In this document: piece by piece, positions 36,447 through 45,499 of the stretch
Layout: each line of letters opens with the position of its first letter
Position numbering within the stretch: the first letter of the stretch is position 1
From: Bacteroidaceae bacterium
GTDB taxonomy: Bacteria; Bacteroidota; Bacteroidia; Bacteroidales; Bacteroidaceae
DNA: 64,000 bases
Direction: 5' to 3'
NCBI GenBank assembly: GCA_024398475.1
Contig: JAKSJB010000007.1
Location: 1 to 64,000 of the forward strand
The notes under the pieces: generated by a model
Database searches by the model: none
What the model was told of the DNA's origin: nothing
What the model saw: the letters and a program-made list of their open reading frames with translations, nothing else
Translations under genes and position numbers: made by a program

Positions 36447-39400
36447 CTATTGAATAACGAACTTTATCACACATTCATGACCTTCAGCATCCTTTGCCCT
36501 TGCAATGTAAGTTCCATTTGGCAGTGATACCTTATATGAATTGTTTCCTCCATTCATAGCCAACAGTGATGTGTCCACCTTCTGTCCGGCAAGGCTGTAG
36601 ATAACAAGGTGTGCATCCTGGCGTAATTCGCTCTTTACAATAATGTAGCCATTGATGTAAGCCATGCTCATGGTTCCATCACGTGTAATGACGGATGGTG
36701 CATCAATATCGAGGGCCACTTCTTCCTGAGTCAACTGAACATGTACCGTATCATAAGAACATAATGTATTGCATTTTCCTATTGTGGGTACATTCATTGC
36801 ATAGACAGTATTTGCTCCGTCAGGATAGCGGCCAATCGTCTGATCACCATTGTGAGGACAGTACTGCAGGGTATCAGCCCATGTCTCATCGCTTGCAGTA
36901 AGTACTACAAATGAATGCTCGTTTCCAAGTTTAAATGATGTGTGGAGTTGAGATGTACCAACGTTTTTGTCACACCATACGACACGGTATCCGTAAGGTT
37001 CAATAACCGTAGAGACATCTCCTTTCTCAAATTGGAATTTCTTAGGTTTCTTGATGTTGTCAGAAAGATACATACCAGCAATATCAACACTCTTGTTTGT
37101 TGTGTTGTATAATTCAACCCAGTCTTCCTTGTCGAAATACTCGTTTACATACATTGAATTACCTGCACTTACCTCATTTATTCTAACAGGTACGGCATTG
37201 TCATTCAGCAATTCTTCTTCAGGCAGTTTTTCCCATACGGCAGTATAGTCAAATGTACCAGTTGCCGGAAGTGCAAATATCTGTTCTGTTGATTTAATTG
37301 TACCCTGTGTCTGTGCTGTGTAAGTAAGGGAGGCATCCCACAAAGCATCTGACGATGAAACATCGTTATTATGTACCTCAACAGCAATTAGATTTGCACC
37401 TCGTTTCAACAATGATGCAGGTATTGCTATTGTTTGAGGAAATTGGAAATCATCACAATATTGGGATGCGTACGTGTTGTATTTAATAGTTCCTGAAGGC
37501 ATATTGAACCTACCGACTTCTTTGCCGTTTATATACACCACACAACCATCATCAACGATGAAACTGAGTGTAAATTTATTTTCATCAGTAGGAGTAAAGT
37601 CCAACGTAAAACTCTTGCGGAAATAATATGTATATTTCTTTTCTGCAGTCGTGGTTTTGATAGTTGTTCCAGCCCAAGTTGATGTACCCTTGTAACCAAT
37701 TGGAGCAGTTCCACTGGACCAAGTCTCTGTGTATGTGTCTTTATTCCATTGCTTTCCGTCAAGACTTCCTTTGTCATAATAGTACCATACACTGCTGTTT
37801 CCAAATACATTTTTCTGTTGCGTACCGGAACCAGTAGTCCATCCTACGAACCTGTAACCAGCAGGGGCTTCTGTCCTAATAGTGATAGGAGGGAACAGTT
37901 GTCCGCTAAACTTGTTTGTAGGAACGACCTGATCATTAATCAGAATACGTCCGTCATCAATGTTGCTTTTCAATGTTGCCTTGATTGGAGTCTTGCCGGA
38001 AAGTTTCATACGGGAAAAACTCTTCATTGCACTAATCATGGTATTCTGGCGTGAAGAAGAAAGGTTGTCAATAACCCTATTAGCACTTTCCCAACAGGAT
38101 TCAGTTGAAGTACCCCACCAATCCTGTCTTGTAACTTGATTAAATGCCATATCAGCATAGTCGGCAATCTCTGTCACAATTTCGTTACAACGTGACGGTT
38201 CGAAAATAGAACCGGCAACCACGCAGAACGTATCAATGAACTTTTTCCTGAACTCTTCATTATTAAGCAAATTGAGGAATATCGTTACAAATTCAATTTC
38301 AGCATTCTGTAATTGTTTTCCTGCATATTTACCCATTTGTGCATTGAAAGTATAACGTTGTTCATTTGCAAAAGTAGTAAATGCATTGGACCCTCTGTTG
38401 AATGCGAAATCGAGGTCGAACAAGACAAAACGGAACTTTCCGTTTTCAATTCTTGGACGATACCCCTTGACATTATTATGAGGCCAGTCATCACCACCAA
38501 GATACAATTCAATTGCCATATAGTTGATGAACTCATCAATATCCAGGAGATTCTTAATCTTTTCGTACGATTCTGTATTTGTTGCAGTCTTCGTCAGATT
38601 ATATAATTCCTTGAAAGCATCTTTTGTGCCTTCCATTTGAACATAGTTGGAATCAGGATCTTCTTCAAACTGGTCAATTTCGTCATCATCAAGTCCCCTA
38701 TTGGAATATGCAAAGTGCTTATTGTTTGCTTCGCGTATGTTCAAAACACCATAGAACTGTCCATTTATATAGACGAATGATGGTTTATAACATTGATAAT
38801 CAATATCAATACCAGAGCGGGCAACGATACCCTGCAATAATGCATCTGCTAATTTAAACCTGTTTTCCAATGCACCGTTTCCACCATTACGAATCTGAAG
38901 AGTCTTTGTCTTGACGTATGGCTTTTCTGAGAAGAACGAATAAGGCATGTATTTTAATCCATATACCTTATTAGCCTTTAATTTAAATGAATGTGGTGTC
39001 CAGGCACGACTCCATCCTCCACACATGGACATGTTGACTTCCTGGGCAAAACATACTTCTTTACCGTCTTCGAAATATTCCATGCTTACAGGACGGTCCC
39101 AATCCATGTTCCAATTGCAGTTACCGTTTTGTCCGCGTCCCGGACGACCATTACCTGAACCTTGAACAAATATACCATATTCCTGTCCATTGATATTCTT
39201 ATCATCAGTAACAACTGAAATAATTGGAACGCAGAAATTCTTGTCATTATAGATATATGAACGGGTAACAACATCACTTGGTAGATATCCGTCCTTGAAT
39301 AGACGGAAACGATATGAGGTTGATTTAGCAACACTAAAAATACCGGTTTTACTTGTTGTACCGTTTTTCATGGAAGGTACCGAACCGTTTGTAGTATATC

Positions 39401-40037
39401 TGAGAGTTGCTCCTTCTGGTATATTTACCGATACCTGCAGCGTCCCAGTAAATACCTGTCCGATTTTATCTACAATAGGAGCCTCTAATTGTATTGAAGC
39501 AAATTGGCTGTTATTGTTAGTTGCGCCTAAAGTCTTGGAGGTACTATTAATTGAAGGCTCAGTACACCATCCCCAGGTACTGCCTCCATCCGTCGTACGT
39601 GCGTATGAACAGCGCTTTACGGCTGCAGGATATTCCTGTGATGCAATAAGGTTCCCCTCTTTGTCTGAAACATAGATTGTTCCACCATCCGTGTCAAGTT
39701 TAAAAGGACACTGCGATGTACAATATACATCATTGTGGTCAAACCATATCAAATAATAGCCTTTCTTTTGTACTGTGGCAGAAGTACGGAATTGCCATTT
39801 CTTCAGATTGTTAGCATCATCACTCAACCAAATGCCGAAAATAGATATGTTGGCATCGGTTGGATTATATAGTTCAATGAATCCACCATAGTTCCAAGAA
39901 GGGTCAATTCTTGTATCAATGTTTGCTGGCATTATTTCATTAATAATCAAGTCATTGACAGATGCAGCATGCATCTTTGTTATCGGACTGAAAGTTAGGA
40001 CTGATAAAAATGCTAATGTAGTTAGTAATTTATACAT
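36447..40037 (-). CDS. secreted LTD-CotH kinase-LTD protein with T9SS tail (copy 1)
   Basis: 1,196 residues. Order: signal peptide (to about 25); lamin-tail domain (about 28-170, LIINEIMPANID and FIELYNP); chitobiase-like beta-sandwich (about 190-265); CotH-kinase region (about 280-650) with GGDDWPHNNVKGYR near 512 and FDLDFAFN near 540 as likely catalytic and metal motifs; a repeat-like YRFVGW segment; a beta-sandwich with VDDGCVVYINGKEVGRF; a second lamin-tail domain (about 950-1090, VRINEVSAGNSMYVNEYF); and a C-terminal sorting domain (ending in GTYIARAKDAEGHECVIKF). Inference: an outer-surface protein exported by T9SS that may phosphorylate secreted proteins. It is a tandem paralogue of 40708-44247. 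Confidence 0.85.
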   Translation of the reverse strand: MYKLLTTLAFLSVLTFSPITKMHAASVNDLIINEIMPANIDTRIDPSWNYGGFIELYNPTDANISIFGIWLSDDANNLKKWQFRTSATVQKKGYYLIWFDHNDVYCTSQCPFKLDTDGGTIYVSDKEGNLIASQEYPAAVKRCSYARTTDGGSTWGWCTEPSINSTSKTLGATNNNSQFASIQLEAPIVDKIGQVFTGTLQVSVNIPEGATLRYTTNGSVPSMKNGTTSKTGIFSVAKSTSYRFRLFKDGYLPSDVVTRSYIYNDKNFCVPIISVVTDDKNINGQEYGIFVQGSGNGRPGRGQNGNCNWNMDWDRPVSMEYFEDGKEVCFAQEVNMSMCGGWSRAWTPHSFKLKANKVYGLKYMPYSFFSEKPYVKTKTLQIRNGGNGALENRFKLADALLQGIVARSGIDIDYQCYKPSFVYINGQFYGVLNIREANNKHFAYSNRGLDDDEIDQFEEDPDSNYVQMEGTKDAFKELYNLTKTATNTESYEKIKNLLDIDEFINYMAIELYLGGDDWPHNNVKGYRPRIENGKFRFVLFDLDFAFNRGSNAFTTFANEQRYTFNAQMGKYAGKQLQNAEIEFVTIFLNLLNNEEFRKKFIDTFCVVAGSIFEPSRCNEIVTEIADYADMAFNQVTRQDWWGTSTESCWESANRVIDNLSSSRQNTMISAMKSFSRMKLSGKTPIKATLKSNIDDGRILINDQVVPTNKFSGQLFPPITIRTEAPAGYRFVGWTTGSGTQQKNVFGNSSVWYYYDKGSLDGKQWNKDTYTETWSSGTAPIGYKGTSTWAGTTIKTTTAEKKYTYYFRKSFTLDFTPTDENKFTLSFIVDDGCVVYINGKEVGRFNMPSGTIKYNTYASQYCDDFQFPQTIAIPASLLKRGANLIAVEVHNNDVSSSDALWDASLTYTAQTQGTIKSTEQIFALPATGTFDYTAVWEKLPEEELLNDNAVPVRINEVSAGNSMYVNEYFDKEDWVELYNTTNKSVDIAGMYLSDNIKKPKKFQFEKGDVSTVIEPYGYRVVWCDKNVGTSQLHTSFKLGNEHSFVVLTASDETWADTLQYCPHNGDQTIGRYPDGANTVYAMNVPTIGKCNTLCSYDTVHVQLTQEEVALDIDAPSVITRDGTMSMAYINGYIIVKSELRQDAHLVIYSLAGQKVDTSLLAMNGGNNSYKVSLPNGTYIARAKDAEGHECVIKFVIQ

Positions 40038-40089
40038 GGTTATTTTAGATTGTTTTTGTTATTTTGATTATTTGATTTGAAAAACTTTG

Positions 40090-40097
40090 CAAAGTTA
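40090..40097 (-). promoter_or_regulatory. -7 box TAACTTTG for CotH copy 1
   Basis: Minus strand, about 53 bp before the ATG. The identical box stands before copy 2 at 44301-44308. Confidence 0.5.
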
Positions 40098-40262
40098 CAA
40101 ATAAATATTGAGCAATCATAAATAATTATGTTTTTTTAGTAATAATATGTCTGTTGTCATATTTTCCAATAGTTGTTTATTTGGTTCATCATATATACAA
40201 AAAATGCACATAACTCATTACTGAATTATGTGCAATACAACTATTTGGAGAACTATCTGAGA

Positions 40263-40436
40263 TTAATCTGCAGGATATTTAACACCCCACTCGTTTCTAA
40301 GACTGTCCATCACCTGCATGATTTCGTTGATAATCAATTGAGCCTTAGCAGAACCAGTAACTTAGGAAATCATGCATACTGATAGTATTATCTTCTTCCA
40401 ATCTTTTGCAGAAGAAGAGTATAGTTTCTTTATCAT
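40263..40436 (-). pseudogene. chimeric scar: LTD-protein signal peptide fused to the oxidoreductase 3' end
   Basis: Minus-strand frame from ATG 40436: 24 codons (MIKKLYSSSAKDWKK then a hydrophobic run), an in-frame TAA (40362-40364), then VTGSAKAQLIINEIMQ running without a shift into the last 20 codons of the oxidoreductase (VMDSLRNEWGVKYPAD, stop 40263). The first part is a signal peptide and the start of a lamin-tail protein (LIINEIM as in both CotH proteins). The second part, 40263-40325, is identical to 44474-44536. The joint falls in the shared word GAAATCATGCAG. It is a recombination scar. The rest of 40038-40707 is AT-rich with no gene. Confidence 0.75.
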
Positions 40437-40707
40437 ATAAATAATGCTTATATATTATACTTTATTATTTTGTCCAAGTTAACCTAATTGAAATTCACCA
40501 AACTATGTATTATTATCAAAGTAAGGTATTAAATCAAAAAGTGGCGCAAATTTACGAATAAAAATTGAGATTATTTATGTTTTGTCGCAATTTTTGTGAA
40601 ATGAGACTTTTGAAATGTTATCTATCGGATTTTGTCATAATGTATATGCCCTTTAATTTTAAGTAATTATTCATGGTAACATTCAAATATAACAATGTTA
40701 TACATAA

Positions 40708-43700
40708 TTAATTAACATTGAATTTTACAGAACACTTTTTCCCAACTGAATTTACGATATATGCGATATAGGTTCCCTGAGGTAAGGACAACGGATATGT
40801 ACTACATCCGTCGTGGGTGTTCAATACCGTTGAAATAATTCGCTGACCAGACATAGTTGTTACATACAATTCGATAGTGCTATCAAAATTATTCTTTATC
40901 AGCAAATAATCATGATTATATGCTATACTCATATTTTCGACCTGGGAAACAATTTTTGGGGTAAATATGTCATCAGATATAGATCGTGACTGAATTTGGA
41001 TGGAGTCGTAGGTCGAAATAGAGTTACTCTTGCCTATAGTTGGTCGGTTCATAACATACACACTGTTTGCTCCGTCTGGATATCTGCCTATCGAAAGGTC
41101 TCCTTTGTGCGCACAATACTGCAATGTGTCTGCCCACGTGTTGTCTTCTGAAGTCAATACCACAAAGGCATCTTCATTTGCCAATTTGAAGGATGCGTGC
41201 AATTGCTGTCCCATACTCTCATTCTTATCACACCATACAATCCTGTGTCCGAATGGTTCGATAACAGTAATTGCTGAACCCTTTTCAAACTGGAATTTCT
41301 GAGGTTTCATTATATTATCGGAGAGATACATTCCAGCAATATCAATGCTTTTATCTGTAGTGTTGTATAATTCTATCCAGTCTTCCTTATCAAAATATTC
41401 GTTGATATAGATGGAATTTCCTGCACTAATTTCATTGATTCTGACAGGTACAATTCCACTATCAGTTATTTCATTATCGGAAAGATGCTCATATACTGCA
41501 GTTAAGTACATGTCTTCACTTGAAGGCAATACAAATGTCTCATCCGTTGATACAAATAAGTCACTACTACTGTTATCAGTATATAATAATGATGCATCCC
41601 AATATGCATCGGATGATTGTGCTTGATTATTATGTATCTCAACTGCTATGACATTGCTTCCTTTCTTAAATAAGGTGCCTGATAATTCAATAGTTTGTGG
41701 AAATGAGAACTGATCAGAATGGGTAGAAGCATAAGTACTGTATTTGATGGTTCCTGATGGCATGTTGAATCTTCCGGCTTCCTTACCATTTACGTATATT
41801 ACACATCCATCATCAACAGTGAAGTTTAATGTAAATACGTCTGATGCTGATGGTGTATTTGCTAGATTGAAAGACTTTCGCATGTAATATGTTGACAATC
41901 TATGCTTAACTTCGCTTTTTACCCCCGGCCATGAAGAACCTTCAACATAACCAATAGGGGCATTACCGTTTTTCCATGATAAAACAGAGTATGAAGATGA
42001 ATACCATGCTTTTCCGTCAAGACTACCACTGTCATAGTAATACCATGATGAGCCAGTATCAAATGCTTCCTTCCTAAGATTTTTTAAAGATTGCCACCCT
42101 TTGAATCTATATTCCTGTGGGGCTTTTGCAGATGTCGTAACTGGAGGAAACAGTTTGCCGTCGAATTTATTCGTAGGAACCTGTAGACCGTTTATACCAA
42201 TTCTGGCATCCTCGATATTGGAATTGAGCGAAACGTTAATAGGCTGAATATTTGACAGTTTCATCTTAGAATAACTCTTTATCGCATTTATCATAGTTGC
42301 CTGCCTTGATGAAGAAAACGTACTCTTTACGTTATTGGCACTACCCCACGGACTTTCTCCAATCTGACTCATTGCTTTGTATGCTCTGTTTGCCAATTCG
42401 TCCACGATATCACTACATCGTTTCGGTTCAAAGACAGAACCGACAACCATACAGAACGTATCGATGAACTGCTTGCGAAAGTTGTCATTTGCGAGCAGAT
42501 TCAACCATATCGTCGTAAGTTCCATTTCCTTATACATCGACGTGCCGGTATCATACATATAATCCAGCGTCTGCCATCTTGTATTTTCCAAATCATGGAA
42601 TTGGTTAGTTCCGCCAAAACTATCGAGGTCCATCAGTACAATACGGAACTTACCACCATCTATCCTAGGCCTATACCCCTTCACATTATTACTGTTGTTC
42701 AGCCAATCACTGCCTCCGAGATACATTTCAACAGCCATATAATTAATAAATTCATCAATGTCGAGCAATTGCTTAATCTGTTCGTATATATCTTCATTTG
42801 CCGCTTTTTTAGAAAGAGAGTACAATTCTTCGAAAGCATCACGTGTACCTTCCATTTGGACATATCCGGAATCTGGAGAATATTCAAACTGATCCATTTC
42901 ATCGTCATCAAGTCCTTTGTTTGCATAAGCGAAATGCTTGTTGTTAGGTTCGCGGATGTTAAGAATATCATAAAGGGAACCATTGATATATACAAATGCC
43001 GGAATGTAAGATTGACAGTCAACATCAATACCTGACCTTGCAACGATTTCATGAATCAAGGCATCATTCATCTTACTCCCATTGTCATTCCCGCCATTAC
43101 GCACATGCAGAGTCTTGTTCTTGTTGAATGGCTTGTTTGGGAAAAAAGCATATGGAAGATAGTTCAAACCGTACAGTTTGTTAGCCTTCAACTTGAAAGA
43201 ATGAGGTGACCATGCACGACTCCATCCTCCAACAGCAGACATATTGACTTCCTGTGTCAAACAAACCTCCTGACCGTTCTCAAAATATTCAAAATTTACA
43301 GGACGGTCCCAATCCATGTTCCAGTTGCATGCACTACTCTGTCCCCTACCCGAACGGCCATTACCTGAACCTCGGACAAAAATACCATATTCCTGTCCAT
43401 TGATATTTTTATCATCAGTAACAATAGAAATAATTGGAATGCAGAAATTCTTGTCATTATAGATATACGAACGGGTAACAACATCACTTGGCAGATAACC
43501 ATCCTTGAATAGACGGAAACGATATGAGGTTGATTTAGTAACACTAAAAATACCGGTTTTACTTGTTGTACCGTTTTTCATGGAAGGTACCGAACCGTTT
43601 GTAGTATATCTGAGAGTTGCTCCTTCTGGTATATTTACCGATACCTGCAGCGTCCCAGTAAATACCTGTCCGATTTTATCTACAATAGGAGCCTCTAATT

Positions 43701-44247
43701 GTATTGAAGCAAATTGGCTGTTATTGTTAGTTGCGCCTAAAGTCTTGGAGGTACTATTAATTGAAGGCTCAGTACACCATCCCCAGGTACTGCCTCCATC
43801 CGTCGTACGTGCGTATGAACAGCGCTTTACGGCTGCAGGATATTCCTGTGATGCAATAAGGTTCCCCTCTTTGTCTGAAACATAGATTGTTCCACCATCC
43901 GTGTCAAGTTTAAAAGGACACTGCGATGTACAATATACATCATTGTGGTCAAACCATATCAAATAATAGCCTTTCTTTTGTACTGTGGCAGAAGTACGGA
44001 ATTGCCATTTCTTCAGATTGTTAGCATCATCACTCAACCAAATGCCGAAAATAGATATGTTGGCATCGGTTGGATTATATAGTTCAATGAATCCACCATA
44101 GTTCCAAGAAGGGTCAATTCTTGTATCGATGTTTGCCGGCATAATTTCATTAATAATCAGATCATTGACAGATGCAGCCTGCATCTTAGTTATTGGACTG
44201 AAAGTTAGGAGTGATATAAATGCTAATATGGTTCGTAATTTATTCAT
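40708..44247 (-). CDS. secreted LTD-CotH kinase-LTD protein with T9SS tail (copy 2)
   Basis: 1,179 residues with the same order as copy 1: signal peptide; lamin-tail domain; beta-sandwich; CotH region; second beta-sandwich (VDDGCVIYVNGKEAGRF); second lamin-tail domain (VRINEISAGNSIYINEYF); sorting domain ending GTYIAYIVNSVGKKCSVKF. Residues about 21-236 are identical to copy 1. In the CotH core the first motif reads GGSDWLNNSNNVKGYR (an insertion, and the first Asp and the His of copy 1 are lost) and the second MDLDSFGGT instead of FDLDFAFNRG, so activity may differ. Promoter at 44301. Upstream is the intact oxidoreductase. Confidence 0.85.
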   Translation of the reverse strand: MNKLRTILAFISLLTFSPITKMQAASVNDLIINEIMPANIDTRIDPSWNYGGFIELYNPTDANISIFGIWLSDDANNLKKWQFRTSATVQKKGYYLIWFDHNDVYCTSQCPFKLDTDGGTIYVSDKEGNLIASQEYPAAVKRCSYARTTDGGSTWGWCTEPSINSTSKTLGATNNNSQFASIQLEAPIVDKIGQVFTGTLQVSVNIPEGATLRYTTNGSVPSMKNGTTSKTGIFSVTKSTSYRFRLFKDGYLPSDVVTRSYIYNDKNFCIPIISIVTDDKNINGQEYGIFVRGSGNGRSGRGQSSACNWNMDWDRPVNFEYFENGQEVCLTQEVNMSAVGGWSRAWSPHSFKLKANKLYGLNYLPYAFFPNKPFNKNKTLHVRNGGNDNGSKMNDALIHEIVARSGIDVDCQSYIPAFVYINGSLYDILNIREPNNKHFAYANKGLDDDEMDQFEYSPDSGYVQMEGTRDAFEELYSLSKKAANEDIYEQIKQLLDIDEFINYMAVEMYLGGSDWLNNSNNVKGYRPRIDGGKFRIVLMDLDSFGGTNQFHDLENTRWQTLDYMYDTGTSMYKEMELTTIWLNLLANDNFRKQFIDTFCMVVGSVFEPKRCSDIVDELANRAYKAMSQIGESPWGSANNVKSTFSSSRQATMINAIKSYSKMKLSNIQPINVSLNSNIEDARIGINGLQVPTNKFDGKLFPPVTTSAKAPQEYRFKGWQSLKNLRKEAFDTGSSWYYYDSGSLDGKAWYSSSYSVLSWKNGNAPIGYVEGSSWPGVKSEVKHRLSTYYMRKSFNLANTPSASDVFTLNFTVDDGCVIYVNGKEAGRFNMPSGTIKYSTYASTHSDQFSFPQTIELSGTLFKKGSNVIAVEIHNNQAQSSDAYWDASLLYTDNSSSDLFVSTDETFVLPSSEDMYLTAVYEHLSDNEITDSGIVPVRINEISAGNSIYINEYFDKEDWIELYNTTDKSIDIAGMYLSDNIMKPQKFQFEKGSAITVIEPFGHRIVWCDKNESMGQQLHASFKLANEDAFVVLTSEDNTWADTLQYCAHKGDLSIGRYPDGANSVYVMNRPTIGKSNSISTYDSIQIQSRSISDDIFTPKIVSQVENMSIAYNHDYLLIKNNFDSTIELYVTTMSGQRIISTVLNTHDGCSTYPLSLPQGTYIAYIVNSVGKKCSVKFNVN

Positions 44248-44300
44248 AAATATTTAGATATTTTTGTTGTTTTTTGGGCTATTTGATTTGAAAAACTTTG

Positions 44301-44308
44301 CAAAGTTA
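44301..44308 (-). promoter_or_regulatory. -7 box TAACTTTG for CotH copy 2
   Basis: Minus strand, 54 bp before the ATG, in the same context as copy 1. Confidence 0.5.
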
Positions 44309-44473
44309 CAAATAAAAATTAATCAATCATAAATAATTGCGTTTTTTTAGTATTAATATGTCTGTTGTCATATTTTCCAATAGTTGTTTATTTGGTTCAT
44401 CATATATACAAAAAATGCACATAACTCATTACTGAATTATGTGCAATACAACTATTTGGAGAACTATCTGAGA

Positions 44474-45499
44474 TTAATCTGCAGGATATTTAACACCCCA
44501 CTCGTTTCTAAGACTGTCCATCACCTGCATGATTTCAATTGTCTCGCTGTGAGGCATAAACGGCGATTCAGTCCTACCGTTTCTGATGGCATCCAGGCAA
44601 GCCAGTACTTCATACTCATATCCCGTGGATTGTTCCTTTGGAGGATAGAATGTTTCAACAGCCTTGTAATCGTGGTACAATGTCACTTTTTCAGGACAGT
44701 TGATGTTCTGTACTTCGATATACCCTTTTCTTCCTGCAATCATACCCATACGGTTACACCAACAGCGTACACCAGCCTGAAGGTTTGCCATTCTGCCATC
44801 GTTCCAAAGCATAGTAATTGTTTCGCTGAGGTCAACACCCGACTTACCCTTCACACATGCCGAATGCATGGAAGAATTGCCATTTCCGAAATACATTCTT
44901 GCAAAGTTTATGCTGTAAACACCTAAATCAAGTAATGCACCGCCACACAATTCCGGCCTTTGAATCCGTTCCTTGTCCTCGTTATCGTAGCAGAGGCTTG
45001 CATAGAGCACTTCAGGTTGACCTATAGCGTCATTCTTAAGCAGTTCCGATACCTTATGCGACAGAGGCATACATCTTGTCCATACAGCCTCCATACAGAA
45101 CACACCTTTCCTTTTTGCTGCATCAAGTAGTTCAAGGGCTTCCCGTGTATTTGCCGTAAAAGCCTTTTCCACCAACACATGCTTTCCTGCATTGATAGCC
45201 AACAAGGCATGTTTCAGGTGATGGGAGTGAGGAGTAGCAATATACACCAGTTCCACTTCATTGTCTTCCACTAGTTCCTGATATGAGCCGTATGCTTTCT
45301 GGAATCCCATTTTTTCTGCAAAATCCCTTGCACGTTCAATGTTACGTGCTGCAATCGCATACTTTTCCAACTGTTCACCAGTATCCATTACACCCATTGT
45401 TTTTTGGAGTGCAGATACGGTAGATGATGATTGTAGATTACTTAAGGTTAGTGCCATCTTGTCGGCAATCCAACCAGCACCGATTATTCCGACTTTCAT
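44474..45499 (-). CDS. Gfo/Idh/MocA family oxidoreductase
   Basis: 341 residues. The N-terminal NAD(P)-binding fold starts VGIIGAGWIADKM; YIATPHSHHLKHALLAINAGKHVLVEKAF (here as YIATPHSHH and GKHVLVEKAF) holds the conserved Lys. The C-terminal half is the alpha/beta substrate domain. Probably oxidises or reduces a sugar or inositol-like compound; substrate unknown. It is 26 bp after the threonine aldolase-like gene. Its last 63 bp are duplicated at 40263-40325. Confidence 0.88.
   Translation of the reverse strand: MKVGIIGAGWIADKMALTLSNLQSSSTVSALQKTMGVMDTGEQLEKYAIAARNIERARDFAEKMGFQKAYGSYQELVEDNEVELVYIATPHSHHLKHALLAINAGKHVLVEKAFTANTREALELLDAAKRKGVFCMEAVWTRCMPLSHKVSELLKNDAIGQPEVLYASLCYDNEDKERIQRPELCGGALLDLGVYSINFARMYFGNGNSSMHSACVKGKSGVDLSETITMLWNDGRMANLQAGVRCWCNRMGMIAGRKGYIEVQNINCPEKVTLYHDYKAVETFYPPKEQSTGYEYEVLACLDAIRNGRTESPFMPHSETIEIMQVMDSLRNEWGVKYPAD

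Follow-up and report, generated by a model that had tools for sequence, protein, structure and literature searches.

The window, a 64,000-nucleotide stretch of one contig of a Bacteroidaceae bacterium, comes from a single draft assembly (44 contigs, 79.6% complete), and the recombination event described below is reconstructed from this one genome. It carries two large genes on the minus strand, A (36447..40037, 1196 aa) and B (40708..44247, 1179 aa), which in the list of open reading frames (ORFs) lie head to tail between an intact gene for a Gfo/Idh-type oxidoreductase (44474..45499, minus strand; supported by its ORF and by orthologues in the genus) and an aquaporin-like gene on the other flank (36319-35630; an ORF named from the sequence itself). 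As the earlier note had described, ORFs and Pfam agreed on one domain order for both genes, to which TIGR04183 added the tail: signal peptide, a first lamin-tail domain (LTD1), a HEX_C/Fn3-associated region, the CotH kinase, a galactose-binding-like region, a second lamin-tail domain (LTD2), and a C-terminal tail, of T9SS type A in gene A. Pfam placed LTD in two stretches of each protein (88.5 bits in A and 95.1 bits in B), and CHB_HEX_C_1 scored 28.0 bits in A and 27.4 bits in B; the galactose-binding-like stretch of both drew weak Pfam matches only.

The T9SS tail proposed in the same note stood for A but was left as probable for B. Against TIGR04183 (cut-off 23), the tail of A scored 24.9 bits at the protein level and 28.9 bits in a genome scan, whereas that of B stayed below the cut-off, at 17.3 and 21.1 bits, and aligned with the tails of relatives. 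With Pfam PF18962 even the tail of A reached only 14.9 against a cut-off of 27. Components of the T9SS machinery were detected in the genome, all above their cut-offs: the sortase (1008.6 bits), SprA/Sov (2663.4 bits), and GldM/PorM (545.6 bits). From sequence matches such as these, we consider it very probable that A is exported by the T9SS and likely, with somewhat less assurance, that B is too.

The CotH assignment, also part of the earlier reading, was supported both by Pfam (PF08757, 86.6 bits in A and 84.2 bits in B; gathering score, 23.8) and by a structural model. The CotH region of A (residues 264-700) was modeled with AlphaFold2 from a 12-member alignment, at moderate confidence (mean pLDDT 70.4, pTM 0.78), and its best matches were the Bacillus cereus CotH kinase structures 5JDA and 5JD9 (Z 21.1 and 20.8, Foldseek E 1e-11), with an rmsd of 3.4 over 316 residues for 5JDA; the next unrelated row had a Z of 9.7. 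A sequence search of the PDB with A and with the 12-member CotH profile returned no true relative, and the relationship was found by fold comparison alone. The resemblance to B. cereus CotH thus lies in the Pfam match and the predicted fold, while the differences are a sequence identity of 12-13% and the setting of the domain, which in A and B sits inside secreted LTD proteins of ~1,200 residues with no spore coat context. The candidate catalytic residues D254, N258, N259, K261, and D278 (numbered from A residue 264) were invariant in the 12 sequences. A and B are most likely exported CotH-type kinases acting on extracytoplasmic proteins, and we lean slightly toward their being active kinases.

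The earlier note had read the pair as a tandem duplication with a 4,211-bp period. A 277-bp block at the 5′ end does recur at a spacing of exactly 4211, with 96% identity, but the repeat as a whole is not uniform: the spacing between A and B shifts along the gene from 4211 to 4210, 4219, 4228, and 4258, and DNA identity is 50-78% past ~39200. The recent copy is confined to ~1.15 kb at the 5′ end, and for this copied block the previously given end at 44536 was right. Over its 1126 bp, the block holds 40 mismatches and a single 1-bp gap, and the mismatches are unevenly spread; counted from the junction into A, there are 0 in 183 bp (40325-40143), 32 in 225 bp (40142-39918), 0 in 588 bp (39917-39330), and 8 in 130 bp (39329-39200). 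In 200,000 trials that scattered 40 mismatches uniformly over this length, no mismatch-free run of 588 bp ever arose. The 588-bp exact tract (39330..39917 in A and 43540..44127 in B, minus strand) covers LTD1 and HEX_C. The 183-bp exact tract (40143..40325 at A and 44354..44536 at B, minus strand) comprises, as had been noted for the repeated unit, the final 63 bp of the oxidoreductase gene, together with a downstream hairpin; its source at B is the intact oxidoreductase 3′ end and the intergenic region. Between the two lies a 14% diverged island on the minus strand (39918..40142 in A versus 44128-44353 in B) that contains the promoter, the signal peptide, and the first 40 codons.

At conserved residues, third codon positions matched at 100% within the 588-bp tract compared to ~50%, near saturation, across the remaining gene. 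A full match at third positions means that purifying selection on the protein cannot account for the tract, and this contrast, combined with the mosaic identity, excludes a uniform recent duplication. At the protein level, A and B were 99.6% identical over residues 26-270, but 64% identical in the CotH region, 60% over residues 700-1105, and 30% in the tail, which is far from the near-uniform identity expected of a recent duplication of the whole unit.

We further analyzed the junction at 40325/40326, where identity between A and B ends sharply and whose copied side includes the 63 bp from the oxidoreductase 3′ end. Across it, the minus strand reads MIKKLYSSSAKDWKKIILSVCMIS, a stop codon, and VTGSAKAQLIIN, and then the oxidoreductase end EIMQVMDSLRNEWGVKYPAD with its stop codon. 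The first part (40326..40436, minus strand) resembles the decayed leader of a displaced LTD-type 5′ end: it has an in-frame stop, runs as GSAKAQLIIN up to the junction, and meets it at EIM. Its motif, [LIV]I[IV]NE[IV]M, occurred just three times in the six frames of the window, in A, in B, and in this remnant, and LIINEIM is how the LTD begins in this CotH-LTD protein family. We read the remnant as the displaced original start of gene A, since decayed, though it could instead derive from another LTD gene. A microhomology, GAAATCATG (40317..40325, minus strand), was found by sequence comparison at the junction; A's start would have been cut at the codons E-I-M because GAAATCATG(C) is common to these first LTD codons and to E-I-M-Q of the oxidoreductase. 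When 40326-40720 was compared as DNA with the genus, the matches were short, AT-rich, and promoter-like, and none was a homologous intergenic region; a DNA-level counterpart of the remnant leader in another species was thus not found. It was likewise absent from the other CotH genes of this genome (on contigs C20, C24, and C41).

The copied segment brings with it putative control elements. Upstream of A lies a terminator-like hairpin followed by a U-run (40205..40234, minus strand; -17.6 kcal/mol, z -5.55 versus shuffles), identical to that at 44416-44445. A predicted canonical Bacteroidales -7 element of A, TAACTTTG, matches the motif TAnnTTTG at 40090..40097 (minus strand), and the same element is present in B at 44301-44308. 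Upstream of the remnant leader, TAAATTTG at 40547..40554 (minus strand) is promoter-like as a match to the -7 motif only, and the AT-rich motif around it is also seen elsewhere in the genus, at sites unrelated to this one. With the remnant leader and this element, the record of the event reaches past the junction into 40326-40560. These elements suggest that A may now be insulated from upstream transcription and driven by a B-type promoter.

Relatives of the CotH genes were present in all 17 genomes of the genus (17/17), and CotH-LTD relatives were common in gut Bacteroidales in a public collection. A search for tandem states among relatives found the pair already in the horse-gut Candidatus Colivivens caballi (G012, which is also L108, contig C87), a different species, in the same aquaporin-A-B order; this speaks against a recent duplication. 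In a tree of the CotH region, A of the window joined the A copy of that species (G012_A) with support of 100/100, and a grouping of A with B was rejected (AU p 0.002). In contrast, a tree of the front region (residues 26-270) placed A and B of the window together and rejected A with G012_A (p 0.0006). The CotH region of B was 69% identical to that of G012_B versus 61% to that of G012_A, but the tree gave no clear B-B join (p 0.23). Among 11 aligned proteins, only A and B of the window had an insertion of 7 residues in the front region, while the front ends of G012_A and G012_B are separate (63.9% identical). Beyond the front 1.15 kb, divergence between A and B matches their divergence from the Candidatus Colivivens caballi copies. 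The two copies are therefore closest to one another over only part of their length, since A joins G012_A in the CotH region, and the sharp identity tract in conflict with the tree of its flanks is what segmental replacement predicts.

These comparisons bear on whether the whole 4.2-kb unit was duplicated recently at 40325/40326, its rear three quarters then diverging fast. The common domain order fits such an event, as does the single clear junction that includes 63 bp from the oxidoreductase. Silent sites are, however, saturated outside the tract, the CotH tree puts A with the A of another species and rejects A with B, the tandem order already exists in Candidatus Colivivens caballi, and such an event would not explain the remnant leader found at the junction; we regard this account as extremely improbable. 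The shared gene order and the grouping of A with G012_A in the CotH region indicate that the gene duplication predates the species split, and the shared front end would then be due to later ectopic recombination. The boundary at 40325/40326 is real in that identity stops abruptly there, but it would mark a later replacement of the front end of A and not the gene duplication, as previously proposed. A sharp repeat boundary that carries a fragment of a neighboring gene can thus date a later recombination instead of the duplication of the gene.

Taken together, the evidence argues strongly that, whatever the exact pathway, the front end of A was replaced segmentally by ectopic recombination. A and B would be old tandem paralogues that predate the divergence of this genome from Candidatus Colivivens caballi. 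After the split, the 5′ part of B would have overwritten that of A, carrying over the oxidoreductase 3′ end, hairpin, promoter, signal peptide, LTD1, and HEX_C. On one side, the exchange would have ended within the homologous HEX_C-to-CotH coding stretch at 39200-39330, and on the other at a microhomology of ~10 nt (GAAATCATGC) that the oxidoreductase shares with the LTD start of A. The leader that A had before would have been stranded as a decayed fragment, probably along with its promoter, leaving both genes with a common exported front end and promoter core, and with a CotH kinase, LTD2, and tail that evolved independently. We infer that the transfer ran from B to A because the oxidoreductase fragment can come only from B's side; in six genus members the oxidoreductase orthologues (50-56% identity) lie on contigs other than those with CotH genes. 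Against B as the donor is the weak placement of the window pair with G012_A in the front-end tree (91/94 and 77/90 in two analyses), which would suggest A as the donor; the alternative placement with G012_B was not rejected (p 0.23).

Duplications typically have microhomology junctions, and the joint seen here would equally suit a tandem duplication of B with the start of A, and then a homologous deletion through which the new front of B became joined to the old body of A. This route would yield an identical product, remnant leader and junction included. It needs two events where one exchange is enough, however, and by itself leaves the diverged 225-bp island between the exact tracts unexplained; we consider it a possible but rather less likely pathway. 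For direct replacement of A's front by B's, an island of 14% divergence between two exact tracts implies that exchange took place at least twice or, if once, discontinuously. For transformation of B. subtilis, a single exchange has been reported to leave discontinuous tracts (PMC13344027), and the mosaic at this locus resembles them, so the island may reflect one event or two. Homology at one end combined with illegitimate joining at microhomology at the other corresponds to homology-facilitated illegitimate recombination (PMC3240628), which, with ectopic gene conversion between tandem paralogues, is among the closest known systems; a difference is that here both partners appear to lie in one chromosome, and the event is deduced from one genome instead of being seen to happen.

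Because the locus was assembled as a draft, we also considered whether a collapsed repeat could have wrongly given the two genes an identical front end. Incompleteness and fragmentation of the assembly would allow this, as would an exact repeat of 588 bp, which is hard for short reads. The unrelated sequences share just ~13 bp at the joint, though, which should be too short for ordinary assembler overlaps and makes a simple assembly join unlikely; moreover, A and B keep their differences to the left and right of the exact tract, and the tandem pair was assembled independently in another species. An artefact is therefore improbable in our view.

A further possibility is that A and B belong to a programmed exchange system in which front ends are repeatedly reassorted, in the manner of antigenic variation. 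The two exact tracts and an older homogenization of LTD2 in two other tandem pairs would be in keeping with it. No silent cassettes and no third copy, nor any third source for the diverged island, were found in this genome, however; the exchange reduces the differences between the copies instead of adding variation; and a recent front-end tract was absent from the three other same-genus tandem pairs (G012, G002, and G005). We accordingly rejected a phase-variable or cassette system as the main reading and judge it highly unlikely. More speculatively, and with low confidence, front ends (promoter, signal peptide, and LTD1) and other lamin-tail modules might be repeatedly homogenized or swapped among tandem secreted CotH kinases of gut Bacteroidales. 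If so, kinase bodies of different specificity would be kept behind one common export and docking front end.

The description of such proteins as poorly known proved only partly true. The open-access articles searched did not describe CotH proteins from Bacteroidetes, but the order LTD-LTD-Fn3-CotH is listed for the cellulosomal protein Cthe_0239 of Clostridium thermocellum (PMC6083626), and the family is common in gut Bacteroidales. Cthe_0239 resembles A and B in combining two LTDs, an Fn3-like module, and CotH in one secreted protein; it differs in being cellulosomal and from a Firmicute, whereas A and B have one LTD on each side of CotH and end in a T9SS-type (A) or T9SS-like (B) tail, although a dockerin forms the end of their relative G012_B. 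The family, the fold, and the domain combination are already known, and the recombination, itself of a known kind, has left an unusually complete trace: the two exact tracts, the joint with its microhomology, and the displaced leader are all retained at the locus.

Secreted CotH-type proteins with lamin-tail domains are modular as well as common in gut Bacteroidales. G012_B (L021:8184-12587) carries a type I dockerin end (40.9 bits) in place of a T9SS tail and an N-terminal extension of ~300 residues with Big_2; its modules show that front and tail vary within this CotH-LTD family. In tandem pairs of other Bacteroidales (L072 and L110), LTD2 is up to 93% identical between copies, with a silent-site match of up to 0.84 and 0.70 versus ~0.5 elsewhere, which suggests an older homogenization. 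In two relatives, a similar gene with NlpC/P60 and PGA_cap-like domains precedes a tandem CotH pair (L022:12970-14259; L023:1002-2309). Finally, contig C41 of the same genome (G000; L147:3248-9961) has two adjacent CotH genes, of 473 and 1059 aa, beside a gene for a Cthe_2159-type carbohydrate-binding protein.
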